In this document: positions 34,058-50,883 of the stretch, in pieces | How the letters are laid out: each line of letters opens with the position of its first letter | Numbering within the stretch: position 1 is the first letter of the stretch | Origin: Chlorobaculum limnaeum | GTDB lineage: Bacteria; Bacteroidota; Chlorobiia; Chlorobiales; Chlorobiaceae | DNA: 64,000 nucleotides | NCBI RefSeq assembly: GCF_001747405.1 | Contig: NZ_CP017305.1 | Coordinates: 2,374,001 to 2,438,000, forward strand | Reading direction: 5' to 3' | The notes under the pieces: generated by a model | Told to the model about the DNA's origin: nothing | The model's input: the letters and a program-made list of their open reading frames with translations, nothing else | Database searches by the model: none | Made by a program: the position numbers and the translations under genes

Positions 34058-34208
34058 CTCTATCCTCTTTCATCCGGACTGTAACCGTCGGCTTTGGCAT
34101 TTCACCAAATCTGCTGACCCTCCGGCATAAGCGAAGGCGCTCGCGGGCTCACCGGTTCATGACCGGAATACCGCCGGTGGGGAGTTTCACCCCGCCCTGA
34201 GAATTCGC
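34058..34208 (-). promoter_or_regulatory. FMN riboswitch (RFN element)
   Basis: Read on the minus strand, the conserved blocks appear in order: TCAGGGCGGGGTGAAACTCC, CCACCGGCGGTA, GAGCCCGCGAG, TGGTGAAATGCC, and GACGGTTACAGTCCGGATGA followed by AAGAGGA. These are the defining P1-P6 segments of the RFN aptamer. It sits about 60 bases upstream of ribB and should shut the gene down when FMN is bound. Confidence 0.95.
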
Positions 34209-42251: not shown

Positions 42252-42355
42252 GAACTGGGACTTTTGAGACCTCTGGGACACATGGGACAAGCACCCATTT
42301 TGTTCATGTATTCTTCCCATAAGTCCCACAAGTCCCAGTCGTCCCATTCTTCTCC
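42252..42355. repeat. Inverted pair of degenerate 9-bp tandem arrays (TGGGACnnn)
   Basis: On the plus strand GGGAC, GAGAC, GGGAC, GGGAC begin at 42257, 42266, 42275 and 42284, an exact 9-base step. The complement, TCCCA, begins at 42315, 42324, 42333 and 42342, again every 9 bases, with a further degenerate unit near 42351. The two arms face each other, and ACTGGGACTT (42254-42263) is answered by AAGTCCCAGT (42330-42339). Confidence 0.8.
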
Positions 42356-48854: not shown

Positions 48855-48899
48855 GTGGACAAAGTGGACGTTGTGGACGAAATGGACATGGTAGACAGG
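48855..48899 (-). repeat. 9-bp tandem array GTGGACnnn, five units
   Basis: On the plus strand GTGGAC or close variants begin at 48855, 48864, 48873, 48882 (ATGGAC) and 48891 (GTAGAC), an exact 9-base step with three variable bases each. Just beyond lies a direct repeat, CATTATCCAT, at 48911-48920 and 48925-48934. The array lies between gmhA and ribH. Confidence 0.85.
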
Positions 48900-48940
48900 A
48901 AGCGAACCAACATTATCCATTGTTCATTATCCATTATCAA

Positions 48941-49570
48941 TTAATCGTAGCCCAGCATTTTTTCGACGAGTTCCACGATGACGTGGCCAACGGCGATGTG
49001 GCACTCCTGCACACGGTCGGCGCTGCCGGTGTGCGGCACTACGACCGCCAGATCAGCGTATGGCTTGATCGCGCCGCCGTCGCCGCCGAGCAGGGCGAGC
49101 GTTTTCATCTCGCGCTTGCGGGCGTATTGAAGCGCTTTGAGCACGTTGGAACTGTTGCCGCTGGTTGAAAGTCCGATGAAGATGTCCCCCGGACGTCCAT
49201 AGGCTTCGGTGAGGCGCACGAAAACCTCGTCGAAGCCGAAGTCGTTGCTCCCCGCCGTCAGGGCCGAGGTGTCGGTCGAAAGCGCGATGGCCGGTAGCGC
49301 CGGGCGGTTTACGGAGCTGCGGTAACGGATCGTCAGCTCGGCGGCAAGATGCTGCGCGTCGGCGGCGCTTCCGCCATTACCGCACAGGAGCACCTTTCCG
49401 CCCTCCCTGAAGGTATCGGCTATCATCGAGGCCATCGCCACAATGACATCATTGTCGCGCCGCGCCACGCTCTCCTTGAGCCGGGCGCTGTACAGAAGCC
49501 GTTCGAGCACCATCTCTTCGTAGCGGCCCGAACCGCTGCACCCCTCGGAACAGTTGCACTGCTGGGTCAT
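48941..49570 (-). CDS. gmhA: Phosphoheptose isomerase
   Basis: Converts sedoheptulose 7-phosphate to D-glycero-D-manno-heptose 7-phosphate for LPS core. The SIS domain shows [20 protein letters not shown] and [15 protein letters not shown]. The catalytic Glu and His regions are AELTIRYR and [14 protein letters not shown]. The 209-residue protein has a Cys-rich N-terminal extension ([15 protein letters not shown]) of about 15 residues that is not typical of the family. The partner phosphatase gmhB is at 20.2 kb. Confidence 0.95.
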
Positions 49571-49625
49571 TGCGTAACTGCTTTATTGAAGCATTATTAT
49601 GTTCTGCGAAATATAAAGAAAATAA

Positions 49626-49669
49626 TTGATCGTTCGGATCAGCCCGATCCGACTGATCCGAACGATCAA
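49626..49669. repeat. 9-bp periodic GATC array forming a 17-bp perfect inverted repeat
   Basis: GATC occurs at 49628, 49637, 49646, 49655 and 49664, an exact 9-base step. The same segment is a perfect inverted repeat: TTGATCGTTCGGATCAG (49626-49642) and CTGATCCGAACGATCAA (49653-49669), with a 10-base centre. It lies in the spacer between gmhA and hemE, directly after the hemE terminator. Confidence 0.85.
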
Positions 49670-49706
49670 AAAAAAGGTCGGCTCGAAAACAGCTTCGAGC
49701 CGACCT
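49670..49706 (-). terminator. Intrinsic terminator of hemE
   Basis: A 13-bp stem AGGTCGGCTCGAA (49675-49687) / TTCGAGCCGACCT (49694-49706), followed on the minus strand by a run of eight T. It lies 25 bases after the hemE stop. Confidence 0.93.
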
Positions 49707-49731: not shown

Positions 49732-50787
49732 TCAGTGGTACTTGGCGCTCTCTTCCTTGACGAACTCGACAAGACACTTCAGGTTGGCCGGATCGACGTC
49801 GGGCAGAATGCCGTGGCCGAGGTTGAAGACATGGCCTGAATTTTCGGTGTGCTGACCGAACTGCTTGAGAATCTTGGCAGCTTCGGATTTGATCTTCTCC
49901 GGAGTGCCGTAGAGCACCGTCGGGTCCATGTTGCCCTGGAGGCAGACGCGGTCGTTGAGTTCCTTGCGTGCCTTGGCGATGTCGATGTTCCAGCCGAGAC
50001 CAACTGCCTCGCAACCGGTATCTGCGATGTCGGAAAGGATGGTGTTCATATCCTTGGCGAAGACAATCACCGGAATCTCCGGATAGGCGGCCTTCACGGC
50101 AGCGACGTTCTGCTTGATGTAGGGCAGGGCGAATTCGCGATAGTCATCCTCGGAGAGCGCGCTTGCCCAGGAATCGAAAATCTGGATTGCGTCCGCGCCA
50201 GCTTCGACCTGCTTGATGAGGTAGGCACTGATGCAGGTGGTGATCTTCTGGAGCAGCTGGTGCGCCATCTGCGGCTCGCGGTACATCATCTTCTTGGCGA
50301 AAGCGTAGTTCTTCGAACCGCCGCCTTCAACAGCATAGGTGAAGAGCGTCCATGCCGCGCCGGAGAAGCCGATGAGCGGCACGCGGTCGTTGAGTTCTTT
50401 CTTGGTGAGACGGATCGCGTCGAGCACGTAGCCGAGCTTCTCGTCGATGTCGGGATCGATCAGCTTGTCGATGTCGGCCTGCGAGCGGATCGGAGGCGTC
50501 AGCTTGATTCCCTTGGTCTCGATGATCTCGACGTTCATACCCATCGCTTCGTTGACGACGAGGATGTCGGAAAAAATGATCGCGGCGTCCACGCCCATCA
50601 GATCGACCGGCTGGATCGTAACTTCACAAGCCAGTTCAGGGGTTTTGCAGAGGGTCAGAAAGTCGGTTTTCTCCCTGACGGCGCGATATTCCGGGAGGTA
50701 ACGGCCAGCCTGGCGCATGACCCAGATTGGAGTACGGGGGCACGACTGCCTTTTCAACGCCCTGATAAAAAGATCATTTTTGAGCAT
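49732..50787 (-). CDS. hemE: Uroporphyrinogen decarboxylase
   Basis: Converts uroporphyrinogen III to coproporphyrinogen III in the tetrapyrrole pathway that feeds heme and bacteriochlorophyll. It has 351 residues. Signatures are PRTPIWVMRQAGRYLPEYR, GFSGAAWTLFTYAVEGGGSK and NLGHGILPDVDPANLK. The catalytic Asp is in DAAIIFSDILV. The ATG at 50787 (MLKNDLFIRAL) is chosen; a TTG nine bases upstream is in frame. It stands alone with its own terminator. Confidence 0.96.
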   Translation of the reverse strand: MLKNDLFIRALKRQSCPRTPIWVMRQAGRYLPEYRAVREKTDFLTLCKTPELACEVTIQPVDLMGVDAAIIFSDILVVNEAMGMNVEIIETKGIKLTPPIRSQADIDKLIDPDIDEKLGYVLDAIRLTKKELNDRVPLIGFSGAAWTLFTYAVEGGGSKNYAFAKKMMYREPQMAHQLLQKITTCISAYLIKQVEAGADAIQIFDSWASALSEDDYREFALPYIKQNVAAVKAAYPEIPVIVFAKDMNTILSDIADTGCEAVGLGWNIDIAKARKELNDRVCLQGNMDPTVLYGTPEKIKSEAAKILKQFGQHTENSGHVFNLGHGILPDVDPANLKCLVEFVKEESAKYH

Positions 50788-50883
50788 GGAGTGCAAGTGG
50801 TTATTGATGTTGGGAAAAGAGCTGTCCCGGAAATCTTGCGGACATTAAAATAATCAGGTGCAAAGGTACACTTTTTCAGCCGG

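Follow-up and report, generated by a model that had tools for sequence, protein, structure and literature searches.

What is a row of GATC words, set at an exact nine-base step, doing in the spacer between hemE and the gene that follows it? The row lies in the 64,000-nucleotide stretch of Chlorobaculum limnaeum DNA analysed here (the window), whose host chromosome is one contig of 2,797,276 bases. On the minus strand, the local order is hemE, a terminator, the GATC hairpin, a T-rich stretch with TATATT, a gmhA-like SIS gene, a TGGAC 9-step array, and ribH (PF00885). The features considered here are as follows.

49732..50796, minus strand: hemE, uroporphyrinogen decarboxylase (PF01208)
49675..49706, minus strand: canonical intrinsic terminator of hemE, 14-bp stem, T8 tail
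49626..49669, minus strand: GATC 9-step array and hairpin, minus-strand letters GATCGTTCGGATCAGTCGGATCGGGCTGATCCGAACGATC, 19-bp stem, tail TTATTTTCTT
49610..49615, minus strand: TATATT, promoter-like −10 of the gmhA-like gene, assigned from conservation only
48941..49570, minus strand: gmhA-like SIS-domain gene (PF13580)
48856..48891, plus strand: TGGACNNNN 9-step array after the stop of the gmhA-like gene, a sister flavour
42256..42350, strand not assigned: TGGGAC / GTCCCA 9-step arrays in inverted orientation, a sister flavour

The element behind hemE

The GATC words start at 49628, 49637, 49646, 49655, and 49664, with the last ending at 49667, and these positions bear out the claim, made in an earlier note on this DNA, of five words at exact 9-base spacing. 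That note had also described a 17-bp perfect inverted repeat right after the hemE terminator. The arms TTGATCGTTCGGATCAG and CTGATCCGAACGATCAA do span 17 bp around a 10-nt middle, with perfection limited to those arms; the repeat reaches 22 bp ungapped if two mismatches are allowed. Its placement was correctly given, the array lying on the minus strand, 64 nt past the hemE stop, in a tandem spacer. The 64-kb window has no more than two perfect inverted repeats whose arms reach at least 14 nt with loops of 3–14 nt, and the GATC hairpin is the longest. Equally spaced GATC runs reached a maximum of three words in 60 simulated 64-kb windows (order-3 Markov), and 464 kb of the organism's own genome hold 54 step-9 GATC pairs versus 19 expected and four step-9 triples versus 0.12 expected. 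The five-GATC array is not a product of chance.

RNA from the minus-strand spacer is predicted to fold into the hemE terminator with its T8, followed by the GATC hairpin as a second stem-loop, with a folding energy of −63.9 kcal/mol compared with −34.5 for shuffles. The hairpin itself has a fold z of −9.0 against dinucleotide shuffles. A terminator scan flags it as a terminator-like site whose tail, TTATTTTCTT, is interrupted, and an Rfam scan gave no family match at the element at the gathering score.

The host is a green sulfur bacterium, and the closest relatives found for its hemE, with protein identity up to 96%, come from Chlorobaculum species and Chlorobiaceae MAGs. In twelve further hemE-gmhA spacers, all from Chlorobaculum-like relatives, the hemE terminator is immediately followed by a 9-step array of GATC or similar words; across relatives, the arrays have three to six GATC or near-GATC words separated by variable spacers, and the array of L013 differs from that of L012 by one unit of exactly 9 nt. 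The strain comparison that the earlier note had called for shows such arrays at the same spot in 12 relatives' sequences, and since the array is not confined to this site, the possibility that the note had named as fatal to its own view, a random terminator variant found nowhere else, does not hold. Twelve of the 13 array-bearing spacers, the window's included, were folded (L165 repeats L021, and L184 and L138 repeat L022). For 10 of the 12, at most 4 of 200 dinucleotide shuffles fold as well (z −2.5 to −9.0); L018 is equalled by 9 of 200 (z −2.0) and L016 by 31 of 200 (z −1.1), and five relatives without an array here give z values of −0.1 to −1.9. The outer arms covary, reading GTTCG/CGAAC in the window, GGTCG/CGACC in L012, GGTCT/AGACC in L199, and AGTCG/CGACT in L022. 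Judged from these predicted folds and paired letters, the hairpin is nearly always conserved at this site through paired changes, and its letters are not.

Relatives keep the T-rich stretch and TATATT/TACATT whether or not they have the array, and because array-free relatives retain them, these elements are probably the promoter of the gmhA-like SIS gene. An operator of this promoter was considered as the main role of the array and rejected, since the last GATC lies anywhere from about 4 to 14 nt from TATATT/TACATT, depending on the relative, and since arrays avoid divergent spacers.

A family of arrays at gene ends

A search for GATC at 9-base steps, also proposed in the earlier note, found arrays beyond this site and in most genomes of the genus. 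Of 21 genomes in the genus, 17 contain exact runs of four GATC words nine bases apart, with 1 to 18 matches apiece, and the reversed pattern, used as a control, had no match in the 21. The same kind of run is present in 9 of 65 genomes elsewhere in the family and in 7 of 231 elsewhere in the order and phylum, several of these being exact repeats. Predicted genes hold several of the exact repeats of other Bacteroidota and the one of G010, which were set aside as coding repeats. The arrays are found mainly in Chlorobaculum and are patchy in the remaining Chlorobiaceae.

The repeating unit is GATC-N-G-W-C-N: among 44 distinct arrays, 73% of spacers fit N-G-W-C-N compared with 3% expected. Because GATC is self-reverse-complementary and the 5-nt spacer nearly so, runs of this unit form a long stem. 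Mirror-placed spacers in the 44 arrays pair at 202 of 300 positions, compared with 176 ± 7.6 after random reordering and flipping of the units, a difference whose z-score is somewhat inflated because several of the arrays are orthologous to each other. Long perfect palindromes occur among the copies (40 bp in L166, 32 bp in L001), and for the arrays of L016, L161, and L180, shuffles or reordered units fold just as well.

With genes called by a codon-based caller, 36 GATC arrays could be assigned between two genes. Sixteen are in convergent spacers, 20 in tandem spacers, and none in divergent spacers, compared with 35 convergent, 158 tandem, and 46 divergent spacers in the own genome (P = 1e-4 for convergent enrichment and 8e-4 for divergent depletion). 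The median distance to the nearest stop codon is 13.5 nt. Ten further arrays were called in-gene; two outgroups, G010, and G018 account for four of them, all coding-type repeats, and at least one of the others, L133 at the hemE site, was miscalled. The hemE element belongs to a family of gene-end 9-step arrays.

How does this family compare with known systems? Rho-independent terminators share with it a stem-loop past a stop codon and, in the hemE copy, a T-rich tail, but the array stem consists of 9-step repeats, has moderate GC, and often stands beside an ordinary terminator, and the T tract is usually missing at other array loci. Away from hemE, the 10-nt flanks of arrays have a T content of 33% and most arrays are without a T tract; because of this, they are not generally classical intrinsic terminators. 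A general T-tract terminator was tested for the whole family and rejected; the hemE copy has a stable stem followed by a T tract, a combination that is not general among the arrays. Minisatellites (VNTRs) are also tandem units whose number changes between relatives, whereas the array units are non-identical, self-complementary, and strictly behind stop codons. For the class defined here, the 9-step gene-end array, the hemE copy shows the step, the stop-codon placement, and the fold-back.

REP/BIME/REPIN elements are, like the arrays, extragenic palindromes in variable number, and REP/BIME placement at gene ends, away from divergent spacers, resembles that of the arrays. The arrays differ in their 9-nt unit, in having no conserved REP core and no linked RAYT here, and in using three exchangeable motifs, with the fold kept without the sequence. 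Roles in mRNA stability and termination have been described for some of the REP/BIME/REPIN elements (PMC3116915). The arrays could be imagined as REP-like mobile elements spread by a Y1 (RAYT-like) transposase, since they are extragenic palindromes behind stop codons and the genome has two Y1_Tnp genes. However, neither gene's 3.3-kb locus holds a 9-step array, the better Y1_Tnp match (L234) is surrounded by palindromes of its own, CCCCGGACTTCAGTCCGGGG, and a conserved genome-wide core of REP length is absent, with only the step and GATC/NGWCN common to the arrays and the spacers varying. No linked RAYT flanked by the repeat was found. We regard this origin as very unlikely and have rejected the link between RAYT and the arrays.

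At locus L234 (G000:C1:2252073), the RAYT-like Y1_Tnp gene lies amid palindromes TTGCCCCGGACTTCAGTCCGGGGC, and the same palindrome occurs in a spacer of L239. The palindromes around L234 are probably a REP family of the host genome.

The open-access papers searched yielded no account of such repeats, of palindromes, or of arrays with a 9-bp step for either Chlorobium or Chlorobaculum, and Chlorobium goes unmentioned in a survey of stem-loops; this absence is weak evidence of novelty because most subscription papers lie outside that scope. The family of 9-step gene-end arrays is apparently undescribed.

GGAC arrays and the nine-base step

In own-genome stretches totalling 1.26 Mb, three copies of a four-letter word spaced at step 9 are found in 47 spacers, compared with 2 to 16 spacers for steps 6–8 and 10–15, and step 9 is the sole strongly enriched step from 6 to 15. 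The second most frequent is step 7, with 16 spacers. In the same 1.26 Mb, GGAC arrays are present in 17 spacers between tandem genes and 11 between convergent genes; all 140 divergent spacers are free of them (P = 0.0016). The GGAC arrays take the form GTGGACNNN or TGGGACNNN, and frequently comprise a pair of inverted arms. In the GTGGACNNN arrays, which occur at many places on G000:C1, the hexamer is constant and the triplet variable, and in their inverted arms the hexamers pair and the triplets often do not.

The 9-step arrays might be a neutral by-product, in which quasi-palindromic words at gene ends grow and shrink by 9-nt slippage and template switching without any function. The single-unit difference between the close relatives L012 and L013 fits this view, as do the arrays that are degenerate or absent at several orthologous sites. 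However, adjacent variable triplets of GTGGAC units are identical in 0 of 24 sampled, unlike fresh slippage copies; the arrays are confined to step 9; and the fold at the hemE site is preserved with paired changes. We consider a functionless origin unlikely.

Twelve intergenic sites with a GATC array in another species have a syntenic own spacer in the sample, and these were divided into classes by eye. Five of the own sites carry a full, short, or degenerate GATC array, three carry a GGAC array instead (L112 for L181/L186, L121 for L189, and L243 for L191), and four carry none. Given a GGAC-pair background of 7.8% in own spacers, three of twelve corresponds to P = 0.06, and three among the seven sites without a GATC array to P = 0.013. 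These three sites are suggestive of an exchange of GATC and GGAC arrays at orthologous positions. Together with the shared placement and the step-9 enrichment, they lend support to the kinship that the earlier note had seen between the GATC element and GGAC arrays of the same period. A bolder reading, to which we give a low probability, is that a 9-base ruler and not a sequence defines the element in green sulfur bacteria, such that GATC, GTGGAC, and TGGGAC interchange at orthologous sites and some factor or process reads or builds the step at transcript ends.

The GGAC arrays also bear on the idea, raised in the earlier note, of a dense target for a Dam-like methylase, which in a Dam/SeqA-like system would control hemE or gmhA. 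Five GATC words lie within 40 bp, the 9-bp spacing is near that of GATC pairs bound by SeqA, and the genome has four N6/N4 methylases of unknown specificity. Yet no D12-class (Dam-type, PF02086) methylase was found in the genome by a search whose control was positive in E. coli, nor was a C5-cytosine methylase found there, and arrays avoid spacers that hold only promoters. At orthologous sites the arrays can be GGAC ones that contain no GATC, so methylation of GATC cannot be the purpose that the arrays share. The Dam-like proposal is not supported, and we hold it to be highly improbable.

Possible roles in RNA and in DNA

For the hemE copy, the reading that we favour most, at about even confidence, is action in read-through RNA, either as a second, T-tailed terminator or as a block to 3′-end exonucleases, insulating the next promoter. 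The sequence, the family, the placement, and the conservation of the fold are direct observations. Family arrays directly behind stop codons would fold back into hairpins, and at hemE the hairpin would separate the terminator of hemE from the gmhA-like gene's promoter. We infer action in RNA, termination, and insulation: RNA passing the first hemE terminator would meet the GATC hairpin, which would end the transcript as a T-tailed back-up or would block 3′ exonuclease, and either event would insulate the gmhA-like promoter. A back-up terminator or exonuclease block is the simplest reading at hemE because of the T-rich tail and the terminator-scan match. Against a 3′-end role, the first hemE terminator looks sufficient alone. 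Taken as a family, the arrays may protect RNA ends, terminate weakly in both directions, or act at the level of the DNA.

The placement of the arrays would equally fit a DNA-level role, for example as gyrase or nucleoid-protein sites. Under such a scheme, gyrase, a nucleoid or segregation factor, or some multimer would bind half sites spaced by 9 bp at gene ends, and the hairpin would be a by-product of dyad symmetry. Strict retention of the step although the motif differs between flavours is consistent with this scheme, as are the three orthologous sites with different motifs, and absence from divergent spacers also suits supercoil-related sites such as REP/BIME. However, GATC, GTGGAC, and TGGGAC are hard to square with one sequence-reading protein, and mirror pairing exceeds that of randomly ordered units. 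We give DNA-level binding a minor share of the probability. None of the hairpin, RNA-end protection, weak termination, or DNA-level readings accounts for the nine-base step.

If the 3′-end hairpin reading is true, Chlorobiaceae possess hairpins at gene ends that make up a large class, identifiable from period and fold instead of sequence, and the arrays supply concrete loci for work on transcript ending in a group with little termination data. They would also be a case in which the period of a repeat is conserved while the repeat itself is exchanged.

Two further observations were made in the window. A recurring 7-nt repeat of the ATTATCC type (CATTATCCATTATCAATTAATC) is present at 48905–48935 and in other own spacers, and an FMN riboswitch (RF00050) lies at 34058–34208 on the minus strand, with 109.8 bits.
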